The notes below the pieces were generated by a model. The model worked only from the letters and a program-made list of their open reading frames with translations, was not told the DNA's origin and ran no database searches. A program made the position numbers and the translations under genes. Below are positions 7,101-63,497 of a stretch of 64,000 nucleotides of DNA, in pieces; position 1 is the stretch's first letter; each line of letters starts with the position of its first letter. The DNA comes from Haliotis asinina (taxonomy: Eukaryota > Mollusca > Gastropoda > Lepetellida > Haliotidae): positions 2,551,978 through 2,615,977 of the forward strand of contig NC_090290.1 in NCBI RefSeq assembly GCF_037392515.1, read 5' to 3'.

Positions 7101-7698
7101 ACAGATGCACACGAAAGGATTGATAATACATCCTAACACGTTCAGGTAAATGTGGGGTTGCGAAGGTAGGTAGAATGGATGTAGTAAGTTCTTTTCTTTT
7201 CCTGCGCAAAGGTCTTTGGGCACATTTGACCTTTTGACTCTTCAATTGTTCAACTATCTCAGCCTCAGTTACATCTTTGTCAACATTGTAAATAACTCCC
7301 TTGGATTCACTCAGGGATTTTTGGACATAACTCTTGACACGAACACGCAGATACACGCTACATTCATTGCAAGGTTAAGTTGCTCGGCAGTCCTACAATG
7401 TATCACTAAATCTCCCTTTTCCAGTTCTTTTATGCTCCACGTCGCCAGTGTTTGTTTTTTTGTTTTTTTATTATTATCATTGTTATTATTATTTTTTATT
7501 TATTTATTTAATGAAAATCCCGAGCCAAAGCAATTAGACTCAAGTTTGTCAAACGTAATCGTGGGTTAACAGAAGTAAAAATGACAACAAATTTAATAGG
7601 TAATGACGAAGTAGCCTCTTTTACAACTTCAAATTCACTTGTAATAGTGTATCGTTTTGCTTAGATATGAACCAGGTCCCAGCAAGTAACACATCCTT
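4128..7698 (-). mobile_element. LINE (I/Jockey-like, with RNase H), internally deleted, with target-site duplication
   Basis: Minus-strand order: ORF1 part with CCHC zinc knuckles (about 7356-6790; CYNCQKFGHVSSQC and following Cys/His clusters), endonuclease start (about 6440-5800; MQWNAQSLNVHRDNLKHFL, later a VITIVNIYN-type strand), a stretch before the expected reverse transcriptase (5770-5470), then an RNase H end (about 5400-4756; GNEMADNLDKSAL). The reverse-transcriptase core is missing: endonuclease-side sequence runs almost directly into RNase H, and frames carry several stops. It is flanked by a 16-base repeat, CACAAATCCTTGATTT at 4112-4127 and CACAAATCCCTGATTT at 7699-7714 (15/16 identical), and the 3' end is A-rich (plus-strand T run 4125-4132). 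The second duplication copy has the empty site near 18337-18352. Confidence 0.8.
6787..7356 (-). CDS. LINE ORF1 fragment with zinc knuckles
   Basis: A 189-codon open frame inside the LINE encodes a nucleic-acid-binding ORF1 part: YYQSFRVHLYRCYNCQKFGH opens a CCHC knuckle, followed by further Cys/His clusters (SVWPRCSGEHNVEYC, CCNGRHSAAYNGC). This arrangement is typical of ORF1 of I/Jockey-type LINEs. The first Met is not necessarily the true start, because related sequence continues upstream in another frame to about 7450. Confidence 0.6.
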   Translation of the reverse strand: MYLRVRVKSYVQKSLSESKGVIYNVDKDVTEAEIVEQLKSQKVKCAQRPLRRKRKELTTSILPTFATPHLPERVRMYYQSFRVHLYRCYNCQKFGHVSSQCKSKKSVWPRCSGEHNVEYCSENVYKCCNGRHSAAYNGCKKYKEVVSVQRVGVARKLSNTVHSNSNFCSLCNHRSEISICVSTNLGITS

Positions 7699-38506: not shown

Positions 38507-38625
38507 ACTGGTCGATGGGGTAGCCCATTGGTTCGCTAGTCCCCACGTGGATGCAATGTGTCTCCCGCCTTGATATTGTTGGAATTGGGTAAGTGAGGCG
38601 TGAAGCTTAAAACTCACTCACTCCG
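38507..38625 (+). mobile_element. SINE family B (tRNA-like head) abutting the C1GALT1-like 3' end
   Basis: GATGGGGTAGCCCATTGGTT and GATATTGTTGGAATTG, ending GCTTAAAACTCACTCACTC, match the family. Read on the minus strand, its (GAGT)n tail supplies the last codons and stop of the C1GALT1-like frame. Confidence 0.65.
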
Positions 38626-40297
38626 TCTTACCCTCAATGATTCTAGTTCCAGATCCTTGAACCACGGTGTTGGTGGCAGACTGTCATCCAGATAGACCCC
38701 TGGACTGTGCAAAAGGAACCTGCTCCTAGCCTCATCGTCACGTGCATCACCGAACTGTATCCCCAGGCTCGCCATACACATTGCAAACATCACACCTTCT
38801 GATGCGTTCACTCCGTTACAAAACCTGTTGTAGTCTCCCTTCGTACCGAGTCGACGCAAACCTTGTTTACTTAAGACAATCCCCGCAAACTCATCCGGGT
38901 ATATCACATCTGTCCCAAGTGCCTCCCTTTTCACTTTATGTCCCCAGTATACCGCACTTCCGTCGTCCTGATTTGACAGGAAGTGATGTAGGTTTTCCAT
39001 AATGACGTAAGGGATACCTCGTGATATGAAGAACCAATCAGCGTCTTGGAAATGACGTACGTAAATATATCTCAATGCTGTTATGAAATTTGATAGACTT
39101 ATTTTTACCCAGTAATTAGGTAGTCCGTCAAAAGACAGAGCTGGTATAGTGCCGTTATATCTGTCTATGAAGAGCAACACTGACGTGCATTTGTTTGTCC
39201 AGGATTTTCTGGCAATACGTAGATGATGAAGAATATTAACAATCCTCTTCTTGTAAAAGATGCACATCACCCTGGAGTTTTTCACTTCACGTTTATTGAT
39301 GCTACCTGTAAAATATATCGATTATTGAAGATATCATGTGATTTTGTACCTAGTGAGTCGTCTCCATTTGAGCGCAAACGTGAAAAATTAATTCGTTTAA
39401 ATGTGATATTAGGACACATAGTTACTGCAGGTTAGAAAGTGAGACATTGTAAATTATTGTGCATGTGTGAAAGTGAGATATTGTAATTTTTGCGCTGATG
39501 TGAAAGTGAGACACTGGAATTACAATGCAGGTGTGAAAGTTAGATATTGTAATTATTGTACAGGTGTAAACGCGATACATTGTCATAGTGCAGGTGTGAA
39601 AGTTAGACTTTGTCATAGTGCAGGTGTGAAAGTGAGACATTTTAATTGTAGTGCAGATGTGAAACTAAACCATTGTCATTTTAGTGCAGGTGTGAATGTG
39701 AGACACTGTCTTTCTAGTGCACGTGTGGAAGTAAAACATTTTGTAAACCAGGTATGAGTGAGTTGCTGTTTCAAATTCATGTTTGAAGCTGGGACATTGT
39801 AAATCGTAACATTTAGAACCTAACACTATTTAGAGGAGATGTGAAAATGAGACACTGGCGTGAGAGCACATGTGAAAATGAGACACTGGCGTGAGAGCAC
39901 ATGTGAAAATGAAACAATGTAAATATTGCAAATGTGAAGCTGGCACACTTCATTCCGTGCAATGATTACTTTGTCCATGTGTAACTTGCCATTACAAGAT
40001 TGAAACTAACATTTAGTTATCCATATCGGTAAATTTTCAATTCCCATAAAAAGTCTGAAAATTCATCTATCTACTTATGAAAATGTGTATCGTGTTTTTA
40101 CTCTAGACGTAAACAGTACCTGAGAGGCGCTGTCTGGTTTCCTCAGTAACATCAACCGCTATGTGCAGGGGAGGTAACTCTTGAGGGATCAGATCGTGAT
40201 GCGAAACCATCTTTGTCACAGCAATGCCAACGCCGAGCAGGAACCCAGCACAGAAATGTCTCAGCTTAACCGACGTGTATCTGGATAGTCTTCTCAT
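38614..40297 (-). CDS. C1GALT1-like (GT31) type II membrane protein lacking the DDD motif, 2 exons, 289 aa
   Basis: Exon 1 (40297-40120) encodes a short cytoplasmic part and a signal anchor (HFCAGFLLGVGIAVTKMV). Exon 2 (39305-38614) encodes a domain like core-1 beta-1,3-galactosyltransferase, the Golgi enzyme adding Gal to GalNAc-Ser/Thr: RVMCIF, ARKSWTNKC, YIYVRHFQDADWFF, YVIMENLHHFL, VYWGHK, FAGIVLSKQGLRRL, CMASLGIQFGDARD. The junction is phase 1. The metal-binding site following DADWF, normally KADDDTY, reads ISRGIPY (about residues 153-159), and the YMSGGAG and EDLALG motifs are also altered, so it is probably not a standard Mn-dependent transferase. It ends early: the family continues for about 80-100 more residues. 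The last codons and the TGA come from an adjacent SINE tail; a gtaaga donor just before it may instead lead to a missing exon. An in-frame ATG at 40339 would add 14 residues. Confidence 0.75.
39425..39930. repeat. Minisatellite (roughly 30-40 bp unit) in the C1GALT1-like intron
   Basis: At least eight diverged units of the type GTGCAGGTGTGAAAGTGAGA plus CATTGT and a variable spacer fill this part of the single intron (39306-40119), followed by two longer units with GAGACACTGGCGTGAGAGCA. Confidence 0.75.
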
Positions 40298-42612: not shown

Positions 42613-42618
42613 TTTAAT
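42613..42618 (-). promoter_or_regulatory. Possible poly(A) signal of the lectin-mannanase gene
   Basis: The minus strand reads ATTAAA about 47 nt after the stop codon. It is the common variant of AATAAA and no canonical hexamer is nearer. Position is plausible; use is inferred. Confidence 0.35.
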
Positions 42619-42664: not shown

Positions 42665-45600
42665 TTACGTTAAGGTGAAGGCTACCAGTCCCCCAGCCTT
42701 GTCATCCGTCTCTGACTTGATCGATTCCATTCCAAGCATCTGTGTTGCTAGGGTATCAGTTGGATAGGACTGAGCCATGGCGTACCAACTCCAGGCACCG
42801 TCGTAACCATGGAAATACGACCACTTGAACTGCTCCTGTGACGTCATTCCGGCTCCACGGACTTGGTTGAACTCGGCGATGACGAGAGGTTTGTCCAATT
42901 TATACTCGGAAGCGTTGTGCTGAAACAGTTGAACATGGACATGTGTATCATTGGCCAACTGTCAGAAGCACGGTAACATAATAGGAAATGTGAAATGGCA
43001 TATCCATTCTCTTTCCAAATCAGTACTATACGACACAGTCGTAAAAAAATCCATTTTGAACCAAAGTAGGTCAATAGTCAAACATCAATCCTGCTCCGTC
43101 TTAACATAATATGGGAAATGCATAACAACCGATACAAATCATTTGAAAACTCTGTTTTTCAACTTTACTAGCAAACATATTTGAAAGAGCGTCAATATTA
43201 TTGTATATGTACTCATGGAACAATTTAAGGGAACGCATGTTTCTTAGGGCAATTCAGAATTTCTGTTTACTACCTTCAGCGCCGTGTATTATCGTTTTCG
43301 TGATGAGCAGTTCACTCATAGTCTCAAAGTAGCAGTTCAAACTCACCATAATGCTTTCCATGTACGTGCACTACATGCTCCTAAAGTTACATGCACTTAG
43401 ATTTACACGTTACATGTGTGTGCACTGTCAAACACAACGGTTAAAAACATTGTTAACATGGCGAGACCGTACTTAACTTTGGCACAGAAATGGGAGGCAA
43501 TAGTCATGGTTAATGGTGGAAGCTCATTACGACAGGTTGCAACAACTTTTCACAAGTCTGTTAACGTGATATCCAGACTTTGGAATCTCTACAGAGCGAC
43601 TGGTGACGTCAAAATGAGGCGTGGTTGGGGACGGAAAAAGAAAACCACCCCACGGGTTGACCAGACCCTACGCCTTATTGCTCTGCGAGACGGGTTCAAA
43701 TCCTCCTCCAAAATCAATACGGAATTCAGGCGAAGAACAAACGTCAGAATTTGTTCACGTACAGTGCGTAATCGTCTTGAATCGGCTGGTCTAAAAAGCC
43801 GCCGTCCATTGGTTTGAATCAACATGACTGGGCAACACAAGCGCTTTAGACTGCAGTGGGCACGGAACCATGTAGGAAGAACCATACGTCAATGGAGAAA
43901 CACCATGTTTAGTGATGAGAGCACTTACACACTAGACCATAATGACGGTTGAAATCGAGTTTGGGGAACGTCACAGTGCCTGCACCATCAAACAGCATGA
44001 TCGTTATGGAGGGGGCTCTGTTATGGTGTGGGGCGGGTTTACCTTTAACCACAATACAGATCTTGTGAGTGTTGATGGCAGGATAGCAGGTGTACGATAT
44101 CGTGACGAGATCTGGAACACGATTGTGATCCCCTTTGCACGTACAGCAGGTCGAATGTTCGAGTTCCAGCATGACAATGCCCGCACTCACATCACTCATG
44201 TTTGGCGGGACAGACAGAGGACTGCAGGTGTCCGGGTGTTGCAATGGCCGGCTAAACGTCCTGCCCTTAACCCCATCGAACATTTTTGGGATGTTCTTGG
44301 CCGCAATGTTAGGGACAGTCCTGTTCAACCCAACAAATTGGATGAACTTTTCGTGAATGTCCAGGACTAATTCCGTAGAATTCCGATTGGTACCATCCGT
44401 ACACTCATTCGCAGCATGCCACGACGATGCCAAGCAGTTCTCCAGAGACATGAGGGACACACCCGTTATTGATTTTCATCACTTGACATAAGCCTTTTCA
44501 TTTGTATGAACATTTTTGTCTTACTGATTTAAAGATTAAAAGTCACAGCTATTTCATGCATTCCCTTACATTTTTCCTTGAGTATATTTACTAACCAGGA
44601 ATGGTGCCCAGGAGTCGAACTTTTGCTGCCAGTCATAGCTGTGGGTCGAATAAAATGTCAGATGTCCCTGCAAGCAAATACAATCCCTTAATATACCATC
44701 CAGTAGAAGGTTCCCAGTGACATGAGCTGAGAAGGACAGGAAACTGACAGCGTGGTAGGATCGTTCTTAAAGCGTTCGTCAAATGAACTGAAAGATCCGG
44801 GTTTTATTTCCGATATGGGTGCAATGTGTGAAGCCAGTTTCTGGTGTCGCCATGATATTTTTAGAATATGGCTAAAAGCTGAGTATAAATTATGTTCACT
44901 CACCGACTATGACTGGAAGTATAATTCCGAAGCTGACGTGCGTATTTCCATTGTTTGGGTGTGTGACATACCTATGTCGCTACATGCTAGATAAGGTCTT
45001 GAACGCGTCAAAATTTAATGACAATGAGTCAATGCTTCAATTACTAAACGTGCATATGCACCCAGAGATCAGATGTAGTTTTTGTATATTTTTCACAAAA
45101 AGGAAGATAACATGCGTAAATTCACCATTACGGTTCAGTTAGGCAAACTCGTGATCGGTATTACGATAAATGATCCACGCTACCCGCTAGTGACGGCATA
45201 AACCACTTCGGGCGATCCTGACAAACAAGCTACGTGTGACAAAGTAGGTGTAAACAAATATAGAGATGGTGGAGGCACATCTCATAACAGTCGACCACCT
45301 CCATGTTCTAGTGGTTCGATCCCCGGTCGCATCATGCCAACAGACGTTGGTTAAAATTGATACTTGCTGATCCCTGCCTAGTGCTTGACATTTTAATTTG
45401 TACGGCTCAGAGTCAGTATAATGTATCTGAGTTGAGTATTTATGCGTAATTTATGAGTATTTATGCGTAGTGTTTCGGCGCTAGAAAACCTGCTGAAATA
45501 AGAGCTTCGTCTTATGGGCGAAACAATCACAAGTGCAACTTTAAACACCATTTCAACTGACCGCTAATAACAGCCGACATCGTCACTTTAGGTCTGAGGA

Positions 45601-47637
45601 GACATACCTGCGGTTTTCCTCCAGCCTTCTTCATACACTCATCCTTGTAGTAGTTGAAGAAAGTAAACTGATCTGTGTTTGACCGCACGTTCCACGACCC
45701 GGCGGTTATAGGCGTGGTCGGATCTACGTTTCGGATAGCGTCGGCTTGTCGGGAAACAAACCTGGAATATGCAAGGAGAAGACTTCTTTGTTACACACCT
45801 CATACACTCATGAACGTCCTGATCCTGCTTTGCTGAAACTAAACCCAGTTTGTATTCGAGTTTCAAACACAGGCTGACAATTTGAAACAGCCGAATCATA
45901 ACTCAACTGCAGTTATATATTATTGATGACAAAGCAACTTCTTTTGGTATTCTTTTTACCAAAACATAACTGCGAGCTATGATTGAGCCAATATCGATTT
46001 CAGTTTATTTGGGGAAATGTGTTTTCTCAAACTTGGGTGAAAACGAAACTCTTAGTCAAACAAAACTCTATAGCTAAGTCAAACCCCACACTCAAGTTTA
46101 TTTCGAGAAGTCAGAGCATGATCATCATCATCATCGAGGGCGCTGTTTTAGTCACCAGAAATCGTTGCCATAGCATCTGATTCCTCGAAGCAACGCCCGG
46201 ACGGAGCTAACAGAATCCTTTCACTTGAGCTAAACATCTTAAACAGAATGTAAACACAAATTTTGATTGTGTTTGGGCACCGAACACTCACCGTCATTTG
46301 GGACAAATCGCCCGTATACAGATCCAGGAATATATCAAGATGATGGTCTTGATCTGCCATATATCGTTGTTATATGACATCAAGCAGGACATCTGACATT
46401 TTTGAGACACCTTTAATCTTGCTCGCTCCTTGTATAACTTAGGAAGTAGATTAATGAAAAGATACATGCACGGGATATTCTTAAACGCATACAGATCATT
46501 GAATATACCTTAAAAAGTCTTGCATTGAGAATGCCTTCTGAGCCCAACCAGCTCCAGAATCGTGCAGGCTGGTTGTGTCGAAGCATGGTTCCGAGTTAGT
46601 CTCATCCGGTATGACAAGACCTTCTATTTCATTGATGATGTCATATCCGCCCAAACCAGGTTCATCCTTGATAGCCTTGGCCAGTGGGATGAGTCCATTG
46701 TCGATGTAGGACTGTAAAATGGATTCATCCTTCACCAAGCTGTCCATTTTGTTGCCATGCAGAGCACCATTCCACAGAGTCAGGAAAATGACTATGTTGT
46801 ACTTGGCTGCCGTTCGAAGGTACTTCTTGATATCGCTGATGAATGTTCCTTCCTTATCGAGGCTGACCACGTGACCGGAAGAGTCAAATTCCGGAGTAGT
46901 CTGGCCACTGACGTGAATCCATGTTCCTAGGAAATAAATAACGACGGAAAACAAGATGAAATGACTATGCATTCTAGAAAGTGTTGTCACCGAAATGTCC
47001 GCTCACACAAGCTGTGTAGAAGTAACGGTTTGTGCGTTACGAAAATGTAAATAAAGTCCGCGAAAGTCCGCTACTGAGCCATGTGAAACAATAGTGTATA
47101 CACTGATGTTTGTTGTAACTGAACTCGGATTACTTGCGCTCTTTATAATAACAGAATATCTGTTGTTGATGAATAATGGCATAATACGAAAGTTGAAGTT
47201 CTTTACTGTACCATTTACACTAACAGATAACTAACATACCATTTTCTAATAGATGTCAAAGGCGTAGGTCCGTCCTGGCGAAATCAAAGAAATGAACAAA
47301 CCTCATGCCAGCATAAGTAATTGTAGGAAGTAACAATAAATATGCATTGATATTTCGGTAAAAAATAAATATATGTTTAATTGGCAATACATTTCGAAGC
47401 GTGTACAGCCCCTGTTTTCACTGAATATGAAGGTTCAAGTGGCGTCATACTCACGCATGGAGTTTCCACCAGCTTGGTGTACTTTCCTGAGGAAACATTC
47501 AAACTGTGTCTTCCTGTATTCATACTGGTTATTTCCGAAGTCGTAACCATAGGCAACCCAAGCCTGATTGGCGCCAGACAGAAACACCTTTTGGTCGTTG
47601 ATGTAGAAGTGCTTCCCTTTGATCTGAAGCTTTCGAC
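42665..47637 (-). CDS. GH5 endo-beta-1,4-mannanase catalytic domain (exons 8-12)
   Basis: Five exons (47637-47455, 46926-46509, 45761-45608, 44667-44596, 42919-42665) encode a full-length (beta/alpha)8 GH5 domain like the abalone digestive mannanase. Motifs in order: VFLSGANQAWVAYGYDFG, GGNSMRTWIHVSG (conserved Arg), GGYDIINEIEG with the acid/base Glu at residue 502, TAGSWN, the THSYDW strand (His/Tyr), VIAEFNQ with the nucleophile Glu at 633, and GAWSWY. The usual Pro after the acid/base Glu (NEP) is Ile here. Internal introns are phases 1, 2, 0 and 0, unlike the uniform phase 1 of the lectin half. The TAA stop ends at 42665. Activity is likely but unproven. Confidence 0.88.
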
Positions 47638-49372
47638 CTTTGATAGAGTTGCAGATACTATGTTATTTGTCCTATGTTAGGAGAATAAGAGGGAGAACAA
47701 TTGAGGGAGATGGATAGGGTGCTGAAAGAAAGAATGAATGAGTGTCGTTTTACGCCGCATTCAGCAATATTCCAGCTATATGGCGACGATCTGTAAAGAA
47801 CCGGGTCTGGACCAGACAATCCAGTGAACAACAGCACGAGCATCGTGCTGCGCAATTGGGAACCGATGACGTGTCAACCAAGTTAGCGACCAGACCACTC
47901 GCCTTTTGTGGCACGCATGGGTTGCTGAAAGCCTATTCTACACCGGAACTTCCCGGGTCCTGAAAGAGAGAGGCAGAGAAAGTGGCTGACAGAGAAATGA
48001 GAGAGAGAGCGTTAGAGACAAAGTGGCAGAAAGTAATTGAGAGAGAGACTGAAAGAGACATGGGGTAGACAGAGGCTGAGAAAGAGACACTGAGAGAGAC
48101 AGAATGAGAGTCTGACAGAATCATTGAGAGAGATGAGGGGATTTCAACAAATATTTACCTGAGCCAGGTTTGCTTAAATCTCCATAGTCGATAGGGTCGT
48201 TGACTCCATCCGGGCACTTTTGAGAACTCTGCGGTGCCTGAGACGGGGCGGTACCCTGGTGTCCGCCATTATTGTTATTGTTGTGTGGTGCGGCAGTGGT
48301 GGGCACGGGAGTAGTAATGACAGGGTGACTACCCACTGGAAACTTACATACGGGGAACGCGTGGTCGTAGGTGGCGTCACAATCCTGGTCACTCCACACA
48401 CCTTGAGAGAACTTGGCCATCATCTGAGCACATTTCTCAACGCCATTCCAGTTGTCAGGCTCACCTGAATGATGACGTCATTCGGGTCGTTTGGGAGTTT
48501 GGAAGGAGGAATAGTGTGAATTCGCTTTCAGAGGTATTTAATATCTATCACAATTTGATGTTGAGAAATTCCTAAAGGTATCGGGCATCCCTCCGACAAT
48601 CCCTCCGACGATCCCTCAGAAGAGGACCCATTAGCTCAGGAGGATGCAAGACTCAGTCACGCCAAACTTGATATTAAGAATCCATGACATTCAGGTTCCT
48701 CATAATCCTAAGGGAAGTAACTCTTGGAGAAAAATACTTACCGGTATGGAAGTACCAGTATTTCACGGCAGATCCGTCAGTCCAGGACCAGGACGTACTC
48801 AGAGACAGTCCAATCCAGCAGTCCCCGCCAGCTGGAAGTAGCCATAATAAGAGGACTCAAAAACTTATTATAAAATTTTACAGAATCGTGAGAATACATG
48901 TGTGAACGTTTCTCATAGTCATTTTTCCCCGTGAACAAATTCTAATTTGCAGGAAATATACATGAGTGGGTGTGTTGAAATTTAAGTTGATTTGAGCAAT
49001 ATTCAAACAATACCACGGCAGGGGACACCAGTAATGGGCTTCACATACTGAACCCATGTAGGGAATCGAACCCGGGGCTTCGACGTGACTAGGTTAACAC
49101 AATGTGCTCTTGTTCAAATGTGTTTTACGAAGTGTTGAGACATGCAGTGATGAGGAGAACGAAAGGACAGACGCCTTCTTTACACTTGAGAGTATATATT
49201 TGTTCTTGCAGACTGATTACCTTTCCGACAAAGTTCGTTTACTTGATCATTCTCTGTCTTGCTGTGAATAGAGACAAGATGGCCGCCATACCCAACACAC
49301 ACGTCCTCCGCTTGTTTGAAGGTCATTTTGACATTAACGAGTTGGATGTTAAAACCTGAAGAACAATCAGAG

Positions 49373-49428
<56 letters not shown>

Positions 49429-52400
49429 GGTAGTAGTAGTGGCAGTAGTAGTGGTGGTGGTGGTGGCTTGGAATTCTGAAAATTCAGCTGTAATATGGGG
49501 CAACACAAACATCAATGTACAGATGCCCTGTTTCCAATAGAGGCTTATGTTTTCTAACTAAGTTTAAAAATTGCAATGACATTCTTACTTTTGGATTGGA
49601 AATTAAGTATTGATAGCCGACAATGAATTTATCAACTACACACTAGCTTGGTAACTGGTAACTACTGGTAATAGATTGAAATTCACTTCTAGAGTTAATA
49701 ACACACTTTTTCTTGTGTGTGTAGGGGGGATTACAGTTAGAGCATGTATAGTAAATTACGTGTATCTCCTGTGTTGTACTCTAATGTAAGGGGTGTAATG
49801 TATCAATATATTATAAAATGTACACCAATCAGAACTGAATAATAAGATATTAAAAATATTAAATATTGAAACCTGACTCGATAAAAATTACTACCTCCGG
49901 GGTTCGTTGACCCTGTGTTGGATGTGGTAAGGTCAGGGGCGGTCAAGGTCGCATTACTGTCCTTGACCCTGCATATAGGGTATGCGTGGTCATAGTTGGC
50001 GTCACAGTCTTGATCACTCCATTCTCCCTGGCCATACTTCAACAGGAGCTGAACACACCCCTCCACGTGGTTCCAATTGTCAGGTTCACCTGCCAGCAAC
50101 AAGGCCAAGGCTACAGTAAATAAAGCACCTGTCTTTGCTCACCTATTCACTTTTTAAAATTATAAAATAATAATATTCGTAATTGATATAGCATGCATTA
50201 ATTGTTTCTGTTACACTGACATTTATGTTACAGGGAAAACTTGGACCTTGGCCTTATACAGGTAAAAACATTTGTGGCATTTGTCGCAGATGATAAATCA
50301 CATGAAGTCTTGGCGATAAAATCTTAGACTCGGTTTCACAATCTCATTTTTCCAAGTTTTGGCGTGACACGAATAGCTTATCATTTCCAGTTTACGAGAC
50401 AAAAGGTCAACGTCACATTACTGTGTGCGATGAACAGATATGCCTTAGATCTTTATGCCCGTGCGTTAATTCCCAACAACCACTGTTACCGATCTGTGAT
50501 GACGTTAGACGTCTACGTAGTGCAAAAGAAGCATTTAGAAGTTATCTGTTAGAGTGAATATTCTTTTGTATATAAGCAATACGTACTTCTTAATTTGATC
50601 TATCCAGCATGTTGTTACACAAACCAATCATGGCATTGTAAACTTATCTGTTCAACCACGTGCATTTGGTCAGCTATATGCCGGTCATCGGGTGACCAAA
50701 ATCAAGACTCGTGATCCCTATCTTATTTAGTGCACTCGCACTTTGCTTTCTGTACATTCGTTCTACTGAGTGAGCGCCGTGATTCTTGAGTATGTACTTC
50801 AGTTCAAAATACTGAGTTAAGTACTGTCAGTGGAATGGCAGCGTATCATGTACTATGAACGAGCAACGATCAGTACCTGTCTTCTTCCTTATAGACACAA
50901 TACTGTATTCAAGTCTGCTGTATTGATGCGCCAGCATTAAGCCTGACTCAGGCTAGTGGGCAAAACGGATTGTTTCATGGATATTATTATAAGCAATGAT
51001 TTAAGCACTGACAGTAAATAAACATTCTGTGGATATATGCGTTGTCTATAGTTCTGTTTTATTTTGAAATACCGAACTATGTCTCGTAGTTGTGCCTGAA
51101 CAAAGAAGTGAATAGTCTTCAGTGGGGAGACTTTTCATTTCGTTTATCAAATATTCTTGCATTAAAATTGAAAGCAGGCACTACAGAGAATATTTTATGT
51201 ATCTAATGAAATATGAATATCTGTCATTTTCAAGACGGTGAAACTTCTTCTGCCACTGACCTGAGTGGAAATTTGTGTATGACTGTTGTGACCCATCTGT
51301 CCAGGCGAACACGTTGCTGGAGGCGTCCACACGTCGGTAACCCAGCCAGCAGTCACCATGAGCTGGAAGAGGGAAATGTCGTGATTACAGAAATTCTTAG
51401 TCCAAAGGAAACGGTACGCAGAGTACCATTCTAATGTAAAGGACTGATAATTAGCGGGTACTGCTGTTGTCGTACAACGGAAAGAACAAGATCTGAAAAC
51501 GTATGTGCATGTTGATCACATATACGCCATTCATAATCCTTACAATACAGTGAACAGTTGTCACCATGTGATTGTGTCGTACAAACGTAAAAAGTAGTTC
51601 GATCTCAAAAATGCATCGAATTTCTGGTTGTGTTGATTTTAGATAAACATGTGAAGGAATTAAAGAAAGGGTAAGATGGTGATCTTCTCTCCGTGTGGGT
51701 AAATGGCAAAATGACAAAACTACTTTGGTGGAATCTTAGAACACATAAATGACTTTACAAAAACGTTGGTATGACACTCGTAACCATAAGATCGTTTGGC
51801 TACGATTCCTGAACCTACTGAGATTAACGGGACTTTGGGATTGCCAGTTACATGACCGCTTGATATGGCAGAAAATCCTGTAGTGCAGATATCATATGTT
51901 TACAAAACTGGTGAAACACATGACAACCAGGGAACTGTTACAGTCATGGAGTCGACCTTCAAACATGTTTCTTGCACGTCTACGCGTTGCGGAAAAGTGC
52001 ATCGCATCAGACTCCCTCCTGTCAACAATGGATCCCGTACTATGTTAGGCTTTGTTTGTGCATTCGACATGTTCTACAACATGGAATATGCTTTACTCGT
52101 CATTGTACACATGCATACCATTTTACAACACTGGCGTTGCACGAGGTTTCTAACCTTGTAATGCATGGACGCGTGCATGCAGCACGGCAAAAGGACACAC
52201 ATGGGTCGATTTTGAAAACTGTTTTGCTTACTCATGTCACACAGCCTGTGAGCCAGGGCATTCTCGGCATCGCTGTGTATTGACGCCAGATGGCCACCCA
52301 AAGTCTTGCACCTGTTCTCAGCGTCATCAAAGGTCGTCCTTACCCGGACGATGGTGAGATGGTCAGCTGAAACACACATGGATTTGCACGTGCCGTAGTC

Positions 52401-53180
52401 GAAATTGACATAACGTGGCTATGAACAAATGCAAGTATATAATGCAATATAATCTCGCGAAGGAAATGTTCTTATCAAATCTTGAAATGTGTAAAAGATT
52501 TACCTACAACAACCTTTAAGGTAACATGTTATTTGTCATTCTGTAGACCAGCAGATATTTCGTTCCAGTAGGTTTTGCAAACACAGAATTTGCCAATGTC
52601 GATATGCAATCAAGTGACTTTTGTTTTGCAAGTATTGGTTTTGTCGATATACCACGAATTGACCTGGAACTTGGGAGTGGCTCCTGGTATGCCTGCCTTA
52701 AAGTCACGCCGTGAGGACGTGTGTACTCAGTTGGCGATAGAACTCTTTAAGCATTAGGTTAACTACCAAGCATCAGTATTGAGGAACATGATTGCCATTA
52801 TTACCAATCCTCCACTGAAGGAACTTGTTTTGTTACCACGTGCTATCAAACCTATAAACTCTCGCCAGCTGCTCATTATATCAACTGTTTTATCTAGCCT
52901 TCAGCCGATTGTTGTTTGCCGCTGTGATACAGTCGGAATAAAGCCACAATCGACGAAACAGCATTCAGCAATTCATTGTCACAATTCAGAATGATAATGT
53001 GGGTTGAATTAAGATAAGTCAATAAGAACACATTTCAAAAGTAAGACGATACTTGTTCCATAGTGTCTCAAAAGTAATAAACTGAAAACAGAATAAATGA
53101 TGTAAGTGTATCAACGCACCTGAAATGATCCCAATCCCAGCAAGAAACCCTATGCCGAGAATGAGAAAGTCCATTTTCAT
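42665..53180 (-). CDS. Secreted fusion: signal peptide + two C-type lectin domains + GH5 beta-mannanase (12 exons, 701 aa)
   Basis: Predicted extracellular enzyme hydrolysing beta-1,4-mannan of algal food, with two lectin modules in front. Exons (minus strand): 53180-53120, 52366-52232, 51362-51261, 50089-49895, 49355-49221, 48831-48742, 48464-48159, 47637-47455, 46926-46509, 45761-45608, 44667-44596, 42919-42665; 2106 nt in total. All introns are GT-AG and every junction keeps frame. Residues 1-20 are a hydrophobic signal peptide; CTLD1 about 21-141; linker 142-164; CTLD2 165-281; Thr/Pro/Asn linker 282-342; GH5 343-701. The start ATG (53180) is followed by the signal sequence and a donor at 53119. 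From memory, abalone mannanase is about 377 aa with no lectin domain, so the architecture is the odd feature. Expression and activity are inferred. The exact acceptor of exon 8 was chosen by phase, because the next AG upstream gives the wrong frame. Confidence 0.88.
43210..44584 (+). mobile_element. Tc1-like DNA transposon with terminal inverted repeats, transposase broken
   Basis: TA target duplications (43210-43211 and 44583-44584) flank terminal inverted repeats of about 30 bp (left begins TACTCATGGAACAATTTAAG; the right end read inverted differs at four of 30). Inside is a Tc1/mariner transposase: N-terminal helix-turn-helix (43458-43817; SSLRQVATTFHKSVNVISRL), then FSDEST with the first catalytic Asp, GGGSVMVWGG, FQHDNARTHIT with the second Asp, and LNPIEHFWDVLG with the Glu. 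It is inactivated by in-frame stops after RRPLV, after NDG and after VQD, and by a deletion/frameshift near 43955. It lies in the last intron of the lectin-mannanase gene, opposite strand, with its end 11 nt from the exon 11 donor. Confidence 0.85.
44756..44905 (+). mobile_element. SINE family B in the intron between exons 10 and 11 of the lectin-mannanase gene
   Basis: AAAGATCCGGGTTTTATTTC (B-box-like), GGGTGCAATGTGTGAAGCCA, ATGATATTTTTAGAATATGG and a TTCACTCACC tail follow the family order. Confidence 0.6.
45285..45400 (+). mobile_element. tRNA-like SINE, third type, in the intron between exons 9 and 10 of the lectin-mannanase gene
   Basis: TTCTAGTGGTTCGATCCCCG carries a good B box and lies about 20 bases after GTCGACCACCTCCATG, as in tRNA-derived SINE heads. 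Only one copy is seen in the window, so its limits are guesses. Confidence 0.35.
47730..47965 (-). mobile_element. SINE family A in the intron between exons 7 and 8 of the lectin-mannanase gene
   Basis: Near-complete copy with CAGCAATATTCCAGCTATAT, GTCTGGACCAGACAATCCAG, CAATTGGGAACCGATGACGT and GCATGGGTTGCTGAAAGCC. A GA-rich tract (about 47960-48135) follows directly. Confidence 0.75.
47966..48135. repeat. GA-rich low-complexity tract
   Basis: AGAGAGAG-type purine repeats with occasional T/C, in the intron between exons 7 and 8 of the lectin-mannanase gene, ending about 24 bases before the exon 7 donor. Confidence 0.7.
48159..49355 (-). CDS. CTLD2 and Thr/Pro/Asn linker of the lectin-mannanase gene (exons 5-7)
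   Basis: Exons 49355-49221, 48831-48742 and 48464-48159 repeat the three-exon, phase-1 structure of CTLD1 and encode GGHLVSIHSKTEND, DCWIGLSL, WSWTDGS, GEPDNW (residues 240-245) and WSDQDC (263-268), ending with FPVCK near residue 280. The spacing matches CTLD1 closely, so the two domains arose by module duplication. The last exon continues into a low-complexity linker of about 60 residues (Thr/Pro, five Asn in a row, Gln/Ser) and a short cysteine-containing piece before the catalytic domain. A (TAG)n microsatellite lies just upstream of the exon 5 acceptor. Confidence 0.85.
48983..49105 (-). mobile_element. SINE family B in the intron between exons 5 and 6 of the lectin-mannanase gene
   Basis: The minus strand reads ACCTAGTCACGTCGAAGCCC, GGGTTCGATTCCCTACATGG (a tRNA B box) and GTGAAGCCCATTACTGGTGT. 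Truncated at its 3' end. Confidence 0.6.
49374..49466. repeat. (TAG)n/(TGG)n trinucleotide repeat next to a splice acceptor
   Basis: Pure TAG run followed by mixed TGG/TAG. On the gene's strand it is a CTA/CCA-rich tract ending 17 bases before the acceptor of exon 5, so it lies where the pyrimidine tract and branch point should be. The pseudogene has a trinucleotide run nearby as well (57119-57200). Confidence 0.85.
49895..52366 (-). CDS. CTLD1 of the lectin-mannanase gene (exons 2-4)
   Basis: Three exons, 52366-52232, 51362-51261 and 50089-49895, each entered and left in phase 1, encode a short-form C-type lectin domain. Recognisable landmarks are the helix-2 region GGHLASIHSDAENA, the core strand DCWLGY, FAWTDGS, the loop GEPDNW (residues 100-105), and WSDQDC (123-128) followed by YPIC ending at C139. 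The four canonical cysteines are present plus an extra Cys pair (HRLC and DCWLG). The sugar/calcium loop reads EPD where mannose-type lectins have EPN and galactose-type have QPD, so its ligand cannot be named. A 23-residue Ser/Thr-rich linker follows. Confidence 0.85.
53120..53180 (-). CDS. Exon 1 of the lectin-mannanase gene: signal peptide
   Basis: The exon encodes MKMDFLILGIGFLAGIGIIS and ends one base into the next codon (phase 1) before a gtgcgt donor. The stretch is hydrophobic with a short charged N-terminus and small residues near its end, as in a secretory signal peptide. A second in-frame Met lies two codons on and would serve equally well. Confidence 0.82.
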
Positions 53181-55983: not shown

Positions 55984-57118
55984 CGTAAGAGGCGAGATGA
56001 ACACAAATTTATCGGAGCCAGGTTGGTTCCATCTGGGAACATCTGAGAACTCTGCAGTGCTTTTGTTGGGTGTTCGTCATTGTGTTTCTTCTTTTGGGAG
56101 ACTCTGGTGGGTGCGGGGATGGTGATGGCAGGGTGGCTGCCCATGGGGAACTTACATACGGGGAACGCTTGGTAGTAAGTGGCGTCAGAGTCCAGATCAA
56201 ACACCTTGAGGGAACTTGGCCATCATCTTAGCACATTTCTCCACGCCACTCCAGTTGTCAGGCTCACTTGAATGAATCATATACGTGACATCATACGGAT
56301 CTAGATGTTGAGCAGGGGCGACGAGTGAAGTCGGTTGCAACTCTTTTCATTAATATCAGTGTTGTCAGTCGTTATGTTGCCGAACAGAACAGGCAGCCAT
56401 CAGGCGTCCCCACTTCCGGGCGAATTCTTGCAATTCGAATTTAAAGAACTCACGGCCTTCGAGGGAAGTAACTCTTTGTTTCTCTTACAGAAGAATACTT
56501 ACCACTATGAAAGTGCAAATACTTCACGGTAGATCCATCAGTCCAGGACCAGGAATTACCCAGAGACAGACCAATCTAGCAGGACCCACCAGCTGGTAAT
56601 AGCCATGTCGCGAATTCATCAATTTTTGAAAGTATTTTTACTGAATCTTACTGAAATGCCCTGCTGAAGCTCTCTCTCTCATGGTCATACATGTATTTCC
56701 TTTCCCTTGTAACGTAAGTTTCAGAACAATGGAAATTAAATTAATTGTCAACTGGTCACGAGACGGATGTGGGTGCATCAAACCATGGTCCCACATTAAA
56801 TATATTATTTTCGGTAAAAGTGCATACTGAAACATAAGGACGAAGTTCGTTTATAATTATTTGATCATTCACTGCCTTCCTGTAAAAACAAGATGGAAGT
56901 TTTAGCTAACACACGCGCCCTCCGTTTGTTTGAAGGTCATTTTGACATTGACGAGTTGAATGTTAAAACTTGAAACAAAGTATAAATGTGATAAGGAATA
57001 AAATCATTTATTGGAAATTGTACTGAGACTCTGTGTCATTTTATCGACATTTTACAACAGATTTCATACATCCTCTCCGAAAGTTCTGATGCTAGTAGAG
57101 ACGGGTAAAAGTATCATC

Positions 57119-57200
57119 ATCAGCCGCCGCAGCAGCAGCAACAGCAGCAGCAGTAGTAGCAGTAGTAATAGTAATAGAAATAGTAGTAGTTGTTGTTGAT
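57119..57200. repeat. CAG/TAG trinucleotide repeat in the pseudogene
   Basis: Mixed CCG, CAG and TAG triplets, then TTG triplets. Position relative to the exon 5-like remnant is similar to the (TAG)n of the intact gene. Confidence 0.7.
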
Positions 57201-57514
57201 GCTGTTGTGGTGTTGGCGTAGTTTGCAATATTTTCGCAGACATTCTTCTCATCACCAGTTTGAATGATATATAAGAATTGTAATCTGTATAGGGGCTCGT
57301 AACGAGTGATCCCTGTACAGGGGTAATATTTGTTCACACAGAATACAGACGTTTGCAATGACACTAGGCAAACTACAACGTAATGAAAACGGTTTGTATG
57401 GGAAGAGTCTCTGCAGAATCAAAACTATATTCCAACAGTAGAATGGAACTGGTCTTGTGTGCACCGTGACATCTGACGCATCGTAATCATCGTGTTGGAC
57501 TAGTGCTTCGACGA

Positions 57515-57780
57515 CCCATGAAGATCCGGGGTTGAATAAGCATTGAGTAACTCATGCTTGCCACCAAGGACGACTACGCTTGTCGTAACAGGGGACTAAC
57601 GGGATTGATGGTCAGACTTGCTGATTTGGTTGACACATGTCATCTGTTCCCCTTTGCGCAGATTGATGTTAAGCCGTTGATAACTGGATTGTCTGCTCTA
57701 GACTCGGATATTTTCAGACAGTTGCCATATAGATGGACTACAGCTGAGTGCTAAAACTAAAGTCACTCAATCACTCTTTC
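57515..57780 (+). mobile_element. SINE family A inside the pseudogene region
   Basis: Plus-orientation copy: CATGAAGATCCGGGGTTGAA, GACTTGGTTGACACATGTCA-like block, GATAACTGGATTGTCTG, ending AAGTCACTCAATCAC. It separates the exon 4-like and exon 5-like remnants. Confidence 0.65.
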
Positions 57781-59644
57781 TTCTCTAAGGGACTGCCGTA
57801 TTCTTTTGACGAGCCTGCTGATATATCAGACAACACAAACATCGAAATACAGGCGTCATGTCATGGATAGACCCTGAATTTGTGATTATTTTAATTTAGC
57901 TTCCAGGACATAAAGTAAGTGATCAAATGAATACATAATCGGACTTGATGAAAGATATTCAGTCTAGCGTTTCTTGACCCCGCATTGGATGTGATAAGGT
58001 CAAGGGCAGTCAAGGTCACTTTACTGTTCTTGACCATGCATATAGGGTAGGCGTGATCGTAGTTGGCGTCACAGTCTTGGTCACTCCATATTCGCTGGCC
58101 GAACTTCAACAGGAGCTGGACACACCCCTCCACGTGGTTCGAGAAAAAAAATTGTTTCATTTCCTGAAACGCGTACTGACGTCATCCACATACAAACACA
58201 TGTGGAAAGGGGGTCTGTTGACAATGAATAAATAATTCCCTAATGTTTTTTACGTTCATTCCTCTAACCTTGACCTTCAGTGTCGTTTACAGGAAACATA
58301 TACTTATATAGTCTAGCATTTGTCGCAGATGGTAAACTCACACGAAGACGAGGTGATAACAGTTTCAACTCGCTTTCACAATCTCACGGTTCCATGTTTC
58401 GTAATGTCAGGTATATTTTATCATTTGCATTCATTGTGAAAAAGTCATAATTTAAGGTCGTCGTTTGCAACAGGATTGCCGTCAGTGAGTTTATCCCTAT
58501 TCAGTCCAATTGAGGTACGCACTGATAATGCCCATAAGTGCCATTTTATGTACAAGTGGTTTTATGTCATTCTAGTATTAGTGCTGGTCTTATTTGAAGA
58601 ACTAATCTAAACAAGAAAGATATCAACTCTCTCGATTTTTATTTCATTTTCGAATACCGAACTATGTTTTATCTGTGTGCCGAAGAAGTATTCAATTTAC
58701 AGTTGAGAGAATTTGGATTTAATATGTTTAAAGTTACTTGAACAACACTGGAAGCACATATAATAGAATTTATATTTCATGTGACTGATGAAATATCGTT
58801 GCATCTGTCATGTCGTGACGTGAAGAAACTTTTCATGGTGTGTGAGCTTTGGCGTGCAACTGACCTGAGTTGAAATTTGTGTATGACAGCTGACGGTTCC
58901 AAAGTACCCTAATGTAATATTTGATGATATGGAGGTCCAGTATTCTGAACCATTGTTATGGAAGTATCTTCCTTCAGGAATGGGAAAATGTCATAAAAGG
59001 TTCATATATACATATACTTTCACGAATTGTTTCTTCAAAGTATCATTTTATTATATGTAACATGCTGGGAATTTAAGTCGGAAAAGAGATATACTAATTC
59101 ATAGTCCGACTGAATGTATCGATGTATTAAATCATGTTATATTAACATTCAAAGGCGGCATCACAACTACACACGTTCACTATTTCAAGGACCCCTTTGG
59201 AACTGATCTTCTGCAACCCAAGCATTGGCTCATCACGCTCATCGGTGCTCATGATGTCAGTCACTGACTTGTCTTGTGTAGACTGGATTGTATGCAGCCC
59301 GTCATCATATACATGGTGCATTGCCAAGTGCTACATTAAACAGCAAACCAAGTGAACAATTTCAGTAACCGTACGCGTATATTTGTTGCTGATTCAATGA
59401 AGCAAACGTAAAATGTACACTATACGTGTTAAAATAGACGATCGTTCTGCTATACATTTCTCTTGCATTGTTGCATGATTCCTGTTGTGTGAGAGTCCCT
59501 CAGCGCAGTTTCAATCAATAATTTTGATTTCCATTTGGCCCCAGAGCGATACGAGCCATTGTGATTTTGTTTCACGTGATTTGGTTTCAAGATTCACGAT
59601 TCGGGACACACTCAGTTAACAACCCAATATGACTTACAAAATTT

Positions 59645-61427: not shown

Positions 61428-61703
61428 GTGAGTGAGTGAGTTTAGTTTTACTCCGCACTCTACAATATTCCAGCTATATGGCGGCGGTCTGTAAATAATT
61501 GAGTCTGGACCAGACAATTCAGTGATCAACAACATGAGTATCGATCTGCGCAAATGAGAACCGATGACATGTGTCAACCAAGTCAGCGAGCCTGACCACT
61601 CGACCCCGTTAGTCGCCTCTTACGACAAGCATAATCACCTTTAATGGCAAGCAGGGGTTGCTGAAGGCATATTCAAACCCGGGACCTTCACGGGTCTAAA
61701 CAT
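61428..61703 (-). mobile_element. SINE family A, near full length
   Basis: Clearest copy of the roughly 250-bp repeat. Read on the plus strand it runs from (GTGA)n, GCACTCTACAATATTCCAGC, TATATGGCGGCGGTCTG, GTCTGGACCAGACAATTCAG and CGATGACATGTGTCAACCAA to a CCCGGGACCTTCACGGG end. Its true 3' tail is the (TCAC)n side, so it is on the minus strand. Other copies in this window allow its limits to be set. Confidence 0.8.
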
Positions 61704-61974
61704 TACAGGTTAATACTTGTACAGAAATATTTTGTATGAAAGTAAGTGTTTGGTTTTCTTGATCAATAATTATCAAAATCATAAAATCAACATGATGCAT
61801 TTCAATAATAACCAATCATTGCAAAAATACAGGGGTAATTAATTACGTTCTTTGTTTGTATATAATCTACTGGATCATTGATAATATTTACATTAAAAAA
61901 CCCTTCGTATTGTTCCCCCGGATCTCTGTCGCTATGTTCATATCACTATTAATTTTCCTTTAATTTGGGGACAC

Positions 61975-63497
61975 TGCTGCTGCTGGTATTGAGCTGAACA
62001 ATATAGCTCCTTTCCGTCTTCTTTCCTCTCCCCCTTGGCAGTTGGTCAGGCCACAGTTTGACCTAACATTAACGACATTTAAAAAATCAGAAACCAATGA
62101 AATACAGTATAAACAAGAATATAATCAATTGAAACATACATATAACAATTACAAATCCTTATTTACAGATGAGTCCAAGGACGGTGGTGCAGTTGCTTGT
62201 GCTACTTTCACTGGATCCAGAACAATATCTTCTAGATTACCAGATAATAGTTCTATTTTTACAGCAGAAGCTAACGCCATATTAACAGCTCTTAAATATA
62301 TTCAAAGACACCCTAAACGTAAACAGTATATAATCTATTCCGACTCTCTTTCTTGTCTTCAAGCTATTAAAAATATTTCCAGTAAACATCCACTTTTAAT
62401 AGAAATTATGGAACTGTATAATACTCTTGCTACTGGCCAATACGACATCGTCTTTTGTTGGTTACCCAGTCACGGAGGTATTTCTGGGAATGTGATGGCC
62501 GATCTTGCTGCCAAGGCAGCACTCACCAAATCTGTGACACCACTTCTTCTTCCATATTCAGATTACAAAGCTTGCATTAGAATGTATATCCGTGATCTGA
62601 TGCAGAAGAGGTGGGACACTCAAGTAGGTATCAATAAATTACATGAAATAAAACCTTATATCGGTTATACTTACTTGGGTTGTCAGTCCAGATTTGAGGA
62701 GGTCATTATGCGACGATGTCGCATTGGCCGTACGAGGTATACTCACGAGTATCTATTAAAAGGTGAAGATCCTCCGTTTTGTATCCCTTGTGATGAAAGA
62801 ATCACAGTCAAGCATGTCCTGCTTGACTGTGTTGAATATTCCATCACAAGGGATAAATATTTTAATTCACGAACTTTGAGGGATCTTTGTAATTCTGTTA
62901 GCTCTCATTTAATTATTGCATTTTAAAAAGAATTAGATTTGCTAAATGAATTGTAAATAGAAAAATATTTTATGCTTGGAAGTTTGAATTAGTAACAAAG
63001 AGTGTTAGTGGCTGTATCCTCGAGGGGGGTTAAAGCACTGTAAAGTTATTGTCCTCCTGAGAGGGTACGTAAGTCCCAAAACATTTTAAGTCAAATTTGA
63101 TCTTCCATTTTGTCTTAGCCGTAGTATTTCTGTCATTTTAATTTGTGGCTACTCTTGCATACAATCACCAGCAACTGAGGGGATGATGTAAATCAAGCTA
63201 GGGACCATGCAGATAGCAGAAGTACTGTAAGTCCCCATGGCCCCTAGTATGGTGATCTACCTTCAGTTGTTGGTGATCTATTTAGCCTGTTTTTTATATT
63301 GTATTGTCTGAATAGGAATATTAGTTTTAACTTTTCACGCTAGTTTTATTTCTTATTGTGATATTCTAGTTGTTTTACTGTCCTTCGTCGACAGGTTTTT
63401 GTCATATGCATAGATTCCTTTTTTAAGAATGCTCTTGTCACGATATGGCTGCAATAATACCGATGTGACGTTAAATGTTAACTCACTCACTCACTCC
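61975..63497 (+). mobile_element. LINE 3' portion: RNase H domain and 3' UTR
   Basis: An open frame from about 61975 to 62926 runs into a complete RNase H-like domain (SLFTDESKDGGAVACATF, FTAEANAILTALKYI, IIYSDSLSCLQAIKN, CWLPSHGGISGNVMADLAAK), then a Cys-rich C-terminal part (PPFCIPCDERITVKHVLLDC) typical of I-clade LINEs. A 570-bp 3' UTR follows, ending in (ACTC)n at 63482-63497. The 5' end is truncated: no reverse transcriptase is present and a stop lies just upstream. The RNase H frame itself is unbroken over more than 290 codons, so the insertion is fairly young. Confidence 0.85.
62042..62926 (+). CDS. LINE RNase H / C-terminal ORF2 fragment
   Basis: This frame is intact to TAA and carries the RNase H acidic residues in the expected order: Asp in FTDESKDGG, Glu in FTAEANAIL, Asp in IIYSDSLS and Asp in NVMADLAAK. 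RNase H degrades the RNA strand of RNA:DNA hybrids during retrotransposition. The frame continues upstream (APFRLLSSPPWQLVRP), so 62042 is not a true start; the protein is a fragment of ORF2 lacking endonuclease and reverse transcriptase. Confidence 0.8.
   Translation: MVRPQFDLTLTTFKKSETNEIQYKQEYNQLKHTYNNYKSLFTDESKDGGAVACATFTGSRTISSRLPDNSSIFTAEANAILTALKYIQRHPKRKQYIIYSDSLSCLQAIKNISSKHPLLIEIMELYNTLATGQYDIVFCWLPSHGGISGNVMADLAAKAALTKSVTPLLLPYSDYKACIRMYIRDLMQKRWDTQVGINKLHEIKPYIGYTYLGCQSRFEEVIMRRCRIGRTRYTHEYLLKGEDPPFCIPCDERITVKHVLLDCVEYSITRDKYFNSRTLRDLCNSVSSHLIIAF

Follow-up and report, generated by a model that had tools for sequence, protein, structure and literature searches.

A probable lectin-targeted GH5_10 mannanase gene with two C-type lectin domains in the abalone Haliotis asinina

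The molluscan beta-1,4-mannanases AkMan from Aplysia kurodai (3vup) and MeMan5A from Mytilus edulis (2c0h), both of glycoside hydrolase subfamily GH5_10, have been solved as chains of 351 and 353 residues, which is about the GH5 domain alone. Haliotis HdMan, which stands outside our comparison, we take to be a further molluscan GH5_10 beta-1,4-mannanase. Binding modules placed ahead of a catalytic domain are found in the multimodular glycoside hydrolases with carbohydrate-binding modules (CBMs), where a flexible linker separates the two. Here we describe a gene, called W, on the minus strand (53180-42665) of a 64,000-nucleotide stretch of the Haliotis asinina genome (contig C11, positions 2551978-2615977; hereafter the window), in which two C-type lectin domains (CTLDs) precede a GH5 domain. 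Quite probably, W is a single gene predicted to encode a secreted, lectin-targeted endo-beta-1,4-mannanase composed of a signal peptide, two CTLDs, a linker and a GH5_10 domain.

Reading the minus strand from 53900 to 42000 and splicing the proposed exons (Table 1) gave a coding sequence of 2238 nucleotides (nt) in 12 exons, corresponding to 745 amino acids and a stop codon without any internal stop. The 11 introns all follow the GT-AG rule; the junctions from exon 1/2 through exon 8/9 are all in phase 1. An in-frame TAG lies immediately 5' of the ATG. The first-pass annotation of this DNA had described twelve in-frame GT-AG exons on one strand, and both its coordinates and its exon count are correct. 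The domains that it had named, a signal peptide, two CTLDs, a Thr/Pro/Asn linker and a GH5 domain, are borne out by splicing, by the Pfam model Lectin_C and by matches to solved mannanases. The double-CTLD plus GH5 coding structure is confirmed, and the anatomy of the gene, its homology and its retained catalytic residues are established here.

The last 360 residues of W match four solved animal mannanases: 3vup (E value 1.8e-111, residues 4-326 of the 360), 2c0h (1.2e-110, residues 3-349), 5y6t (2.5e-93, residues 5-357) and 4oou (1.2e-83, residues 4-355). Sequence identity is 49.8% (161/323) with the Aplysia enzyme and 49.7% (169/340) with the Mytilus enzyme. In an alignment of 12 rows, W and 11 others, every row agrees at the following residues of the active-site motifs: Arg, His, Asn, the two catalytic Glu, His, Tyr and Trp. 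AkMan and MeMan5A have the same catalytic residues as W; which residues of W count as catalytic or as part of the active site is our assumption. The enzyme part is a GH5_10-type beta-1,4-mannanase domain in which both catalytic glutamates are present, and it is predicted to be active. In the accessible part of PMC5576741, 2C0H and 4OOU serve as GH5_10 reference structures, and some GH5_10 proteins with intact catalytic residues are described as having no activity on the substrates tried. According to the available portion of PMC4123733, the purified Aplysia mannanase begins RLHIQNGHFVLNGQRVFLSG, and this mature N-terminus aligns with the start of exon 8 of W.

No GH5 model was found for the enzyme part of W in Pfam (E values up to 5) or in NCBIfam (up to 1). 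As a control, the GH5 stretches of 2c0h and 3vup were submitted to Pfam and likewise returned no GH5 model, so that the gap lies in the library and not in the gene. Since Pfam sees only the lectin half, an annotation based on it would label W a plain C-type lectin.

That half is recognized clearly. Lectin_C matches the whole W protein with an E value of 3.1e-29 in two stretches, above the gathering score; the best stretch is CTLD2, which covers model positions 2-99 of 107, while CTLD1 alone gives 2.4e-15 over positions 3-100 of 107. The two domains share 52% identity (61/118), and each has an EPD in its long loop, followed further along by WSD. The sugar-site motifs of C-type lectins are calcium-dependent and of the EPN/QPD type and WND, and EPD and WSD of W are presumably variants of these calcium/sugar-site motifs. 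When CTLD1 was compared with the genome, 10 of the 15 matches listed lay outside the window, with 28-39% identity among the best candidates scored. The best solved-sequence matches of CTLD2 are the tandem-CTLD proteins CD205 (lymphocyte antigen 75), the PLA2 receptor and the mannose receptors, with which W has in common the Lectin_C family and the repetition of CTLDs. Unlike W, these receptors are membrane proteins with many CTLDs and without a hydrolase domain.

Searching the genome (1.14 Gb, 159 contigs), with gene models made by our own spliced aligner from genomic sequence alone, we found eight GH5_10 genes, W, A, B, D1, D2, D3, E and F, as well as an isolated first GH5 exon, C, which is probably a fragment. 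The position corresponding to the Pro of NEP is occupied by another residue in W (NEI), B, D1, D2 and D3, and the Gly of GEF is replaced by Ala in W (AEF), B, D2 and D3. Three of the eight genes, W included, have the CTLD-GH5 architecture. A search with CTLD2 and the linker of W, in which 4 of 13 matches fell outside the window, led to exons just upstream of D2 (E value 4.0e-5) and D3 (1.4e-5). These two genes form an inverted pair, are copies of each other and have one CTLD each; spliced alignment yields the order signal peptide, one CTLD, P/T/N linker and GH5 domain. Their CTLD exons measure 135, 96 and 270 or 255 nt, the last including the linker, which is followed by a phase-1 intron and a 186-nt GH5 exon. 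The 135-nt exon 2 and the 183-nt exon 8 of W stand at matching places and phases. In the reciprocal search with the CTLD and linker of D2, 2 of 8 matches lay outside D2 and D3, and the best of them was exon 5 of W, at a weak E value of 1.1e-4. The signal exon reads ATT in D3 where D2 has ATG; as a stretch further upstream reads ATG|GT in both genes, the start codon is taken to lie there.

Both halves of D2 and D3 have been constrained since their duplication, since nonsynonymous divergence (dN) is far below synonymous divergence (dS) in the CTLD (dN 0.095, dS 0.44; Fisher p 6e-7) as well as in the GH5 domain (dN 0.067, dS 0.51; Fisher p 5e-30). Between the GH5 domains of W and D2/D3, synonymous sites are saturated. 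The first-pass annotation had taken W for one fusion gene and not two neighbours, and D2 and D3, which have the domains in the order of W, a matching layout of exons and the same phase at the junction, speak for this view. As the fusion is repeated in D2 and D3, W is largely settled as one gene belonging to a small family, and this CTLD-GH5 family is probably real in this genome.

In the most likely mode of action, the CTLDs of W, with their EPD and WSD motifs, would fasten the enzyme to a glycan surface, be it the wall of algae or the mucus of the gut, and the GH5 domain would meanwhile cut beta-1,4-mannan, much as in an enzyme with a CBM; the linker would be flexible and is possibly O-glycosylated. 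W has the same layout of binding module, flexible linker and catalytic domain as the multimodular glycoside hydrolases, and would be alike in action if its CTLDs bind glycans. It differs from them in that its module is an animal CTLD and not a member of a CBM family, with putative binding. By this analogy, a role of the CTLDs as carbohydrate-binding modules is plausible. The secretion, sugar binding, substrate and tissue of the W product are all predictions from its sequence, and among the possible functions we favour a lectin-targeted beta-mannanase for algal food, followed by a mucus anchor and then by defence.

Several observations on the family weigh against W as a lectin-targeted mannanase of a small fusion family. 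The EPD motif is absent from the CTLDs of D2 and D3, and sugar binding would therefore not be common to the whole fusion family. A CTLD exon on contig C16 (E value 9.2e-6) scores slightly above the D2 and D3 exons in the search with CTLD2 and the linker, and the CTLDs of W and the D genes are thus not clearly mutual nearest relatives. No CTLD was present in the scanned stretches of A, B, D1, E and F, five of the eight GH5 genes, which makes the fusion optional; a profile of four CTLDs, run over six regions around the other GH5 genes (164 kb), recovered only the CTLDs of D2 and D3, the next best match having an E value of 3. An alternative, unlikely in our judgement and yet deserving of attention, is that the CTLDs tie the enzyme to mucus or other glycoproteins made by the animal itself, or do no more than stabilise it, and that sugar binding was secondarily lost in D2 and D3. 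It would account for the presence of EPD and WSD in both CTLDs of W and the lack of EPD in D2 and D3, whose CTLD is conserved nonetheless. Such anchoring is, however, compatible with a lectin-targeted mannanase and does not exclude it.

The least certain junction of W is that between exons 7 and 8, where splicing is predicted. An acceptor matrix trained on 33 of the 34 acceptors of the family (one without AG was dropped), with a training range of 3.2 to 14.8 bits, assigns only 2.05 bits to the exon 8 acceptor at 47637 (TCTATCAAAG), a score that 21% of all AGs in the window reach or exceed. Two decoy acceptors in intron 7 score higher, with 12.4 bits at 47959 and 10.5 bits at 47721; splicing to them would run into a stop after 25 and 16 residues, respectively, and hence give a lectin-only protein. 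Left unspliced, intron 7 adds 12 residues before a stop. Read-through in D2 and D3 would meet an in-frame TGA that starts at base six of the junction intron, which makes an unspliced lectin-only end conceivable in these genes as well. The weak acceptor and the strong decoys, which count against W as a straightforward fusion, mean that the gene may splice inefficiently or may also make a lectin-only form.

We regard as rather unlikely, though in keeping with these features, a history in which the fusion is ancestral and the W junction is decaying or alternatively spliced, the product being largely or wholly a secreted double lectin without the enzyme. The junction acceptors of D2 and D3 read CCCAG or TTCCAG and lie, by eye, three bases further up; that AG is lost in W, which reads CAAAG, and a repeat copy (47732-47901; the other copy is at 61430-61602) has been inserted in intron 7. 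Loss of the enzyme is at odds with exons 8-12, which are fully open and keep the active-site residues, as an untranslated domain would hardly retain these for long. The exon 5 acceptor of W is also low, at 1.74 bits even weaker than that of exon 8. Among the 24 AGs with an exon start between 48157 and 47600, moreover, 2 keep the GH5 frame from the exon 7 donor: 47637 itself and 47616, seven codons into exon 8 (0.41 bits), which could be a spare acceptor.

A separate start of the enzyme was sought with a scan for signal-peptide exons, which recognizes only hydrophobic peptides with a phase-1 donor at their end and has limited sensitivity. Neither intron 7 of W nor the lectin-enzyme gaps of D2 and D3 yielded such an exon. 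Elsewhere the scan picked out candidates in four genes (W, D2, B, E), a doubtful hit in D1 and nothing in D3, A or F; given these misses, which lessen the weight of the negative, the result supports one gene and does not prove it. A hydrophobic stretch before exon 9 (MHSHFILFSVVIYFLG) was rejected as an enzyme start, as it belongs to the intron, read in frame, and its use would interrupt the barrel.

A defence protein, whose lectins bind microbes and whose enzyme trims microbial mannan, had been offered by the first-pass annotation as the other possible role, and we find it improbable. CTLD proteins frequently act as immune lectins in molluscs, which would suit such a role. Trimming of microbial mannan is made less likely by the type of the enzyme, as the closest solved relatives are the beta-1,4-mannanases of Aplysia and Mytilus and fungal mannan is largely alpha-linked. 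In the accessible part of PMC4581086, an endo-1,4-mannanase stands in the table of the 25 top transcripts from the mantle of a mussel, so that a molluscan mannanase is not necessarily digestive; alpha-mannan is called widespread in fungi in the available part of PMC12858847. Very improbable, finally, is a wrong joining of two adjacent genes, of which one (exons 1-7) would encode a double-CTLD lectin and the other (exons 8-12) a mannanase. The weak acceptor at 47637, the intron 7 read-through and the TGA of D2 and D3 would fit such a joining. Against it stand the recurrence in D2 and D3 of the order, exon layout and junction phase of W, the lack of an enzyme start exon detectable by the scan in gaps of 521, 933 and 271 nt, and the absence of AATAAA or ATTAAA from the W and D3 gaps, with a single ATTAAA in that of D2.

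As to the origin of the fusion, exon shuffling is the most likely route: CTLD modules with phase-1 introns on both sides would have entered a digestive mannanase gene at the phase-1 intron that separates its signal-peptide exon from the first exon of the mature enzyme. On the simplest account, the CTLD would then have been duplicated in the branch of W. B and E have a candidate signal-peptide exon upstream of the first GH5 exon; since the scan was restricted to phase-1 donors, the phase of these exons is not independent evidence. In the GH5 tree, from which fragment C was left out because it comprises the first GH5 exon only, a clade of W, D2 and D3 is not rejected by the approximately unbiased (AU) test (p 0.505), so that a single origin of the fusion is possible. 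Neither is a clade of D1, D2 and D3 (p 0.345), and the tree is compatible with one gain, with or without losses. Grouping the five GH5 genes without a CTLD in one clade is rejected (p 0.0003). The models of D1, D2 and D3 have an intron in common that is absent from W, A and B, which conflicts with the best tree, where D1 stands outside. Linker homology was considered as a sign of one origin and discarded: the scores of W against the D2 and D3 linkers were reached by 902 and 965 of 2000 shuffles, a lack of likeness that counts as a point against the proposed family.

Tentatively, then, and as a possibility that falls somewhat short of probable, a single shuffling event may have brought animal CTLDs into the signal-peptide intron of a digestive mannanase, after which they diversified, with two calcium-type CTLDs in one branch and one CTLD without EPD in the other. 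They would represent carbohydrate-binding modules made by gastropods and hidden by Pfam annotation, an animal counterpart of the microbial CBM-enzyme fusions.

The first-pass annotation had considered animal GH5 enzymes with CTLDs to be unknown, and among the open-access papers listed, screened by title and the start of the abstract (most subscription journals and all bioRxiv preprints lie outside this scope), we found neither a CTLD-GH5 fusion nor anything else contradicting it. In the accessible portion of its main text, a beetle GH5_10 study that includes mollusc sequences (PMC5576741) has no words beginning with lectin or carbohydrate-binding, and the word lectin is absent from the available part of a scallop digestive-gland proteome (PMC5159873). 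The closest solved animal enzymes are bare catalytic domains, and a fusion of lectin and enzyme, if conserved, would be an instance of substrate targeting that an animal lineage evolved out of lectins of its own. Genes with two, one and no CTLD in a single genome offer a test case for CTLDs as carbohydrate-binding modules, and the recovery of the lectin half alone by Pfam exposes a blind spot of annotation.

Upstream of W lies a broken double-CTLD copy, which the first-pass annotation did not mention. Its matched exon pieces are 74-88% alike in DNA to those of W, from which they are 7.6-8.1 kb distant, and stops interrupt the parts that resemble exons 5 and 6. No GH5 remains accompany it at E values up to 1 or by DNA comparison, and no GH5 exon was found between this copy and W.

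Table 1. Positions of W, its paralogs and related features (window coordinates unless a contig is given)
Feature	Position	Strand	Evidence or remark
Exon 1 of W: signal peptide MKMDFLILGIGFLAGIGIIS	53120..53180	-	splicing; hydrophobic peptide and phase-1 donor found by scan
Exon 2 of W: CTLD1, first third, 135 nt	52232..52366	-	splicing; family CTLD profile
Exon 3 of W: CTLD1, middle	51261..51362	-	splicing; family CTLD profile
Exon 4 of W: CTLD1, end (EPD...WSD), linker start	49895..50089	-	splicing; Pfam
Exon 5 of W: poly-Thr linker and CTLD2, first third	49221..49487	-	splicing; Pfam
Exon 6 of W: CTLD2, middle	48742..48831	-	splicing; family CTLD profile
Exon 7 of W: CTLD2, end (EPD...WSD), Thr/Pro/Asn-rich linker	48159..48464	-	phase-1 donor CAG|GTAAAT
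Intron 7 of W: fusion junction, 521 bp	47638..48158	-	repeat and strong decoy acceptors inside
Exon 8 of W: GH5 domain start (GRKLQIKGKHFYINDQKVFLSG...), 183 nt	47455..47637	-	splicing; structure-sequence matches
Exon 9 of W: GH5 core, acid/base Glu in NEIEG	46509..46926	-	splicing; alignment
Exon 10 of W: GH5	45608..45761	-	splicing
Exon 11 of W: GH5, STHSYDW	44596..44667	-	splicing; alignment
Exon 12 of W: GH5 end, nucleophile Glu in VIAEF, WSW, stop codon	42665..42919	-	splicing; alignment
ATTAAA, candidate poly-A signal about 46 nt past the W stop	42613..42618	-	string search
Broken double-CTLD copy (like exons 4, 5, 6, 7) upstream of W	56022..58140	-	DNA and profile matches
33-bp piece resembling the end of exon 3 of W	58887-58855	-	DNA comparison
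A	C8 4.60 Mb		GH5_10
B	C8 23.24 Mb		GH5_10
D1, D2, D3 cluster	C8:35.684-35.724 Mb (genes 35.69-35.72 Mb)		GH5_10
E	C2 97.95 Mb		GH5_10
F	C2 46.63 Mb		GH5_10
Fragment C (probable): isolated first GH5 exon at C8 21.16 Mb	C8:21164651-21164841		nearly identical to that of gene B
D2 lectin-enzyme junction	C8 35704125/35703191		gap 933 nt
D3 lectin-enzyme junction	C8 35715141/35715413		gap 271 nt

The rest of the window offers minor observations. Two plus-strand reading frames within intron 11 of W (43401-44370) together give a Tc1-like transposase; they match HTH_Tnp_Tc3_2 and DDE_3, both under the Pfam cut-off. An open frame of 235 amino acids on the minus strand (38617-39321) presumably resembles, by eye, core-1 galactosyltransferase with a changed DDD motif; in Pfam it gives one weak match, probably by chance. 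Pieces of retroelements are also present, namely an RNase H frame at 61964-62923 on the plus strand and a zinc-knuckle frame at 6790-7374 on the minus strand.

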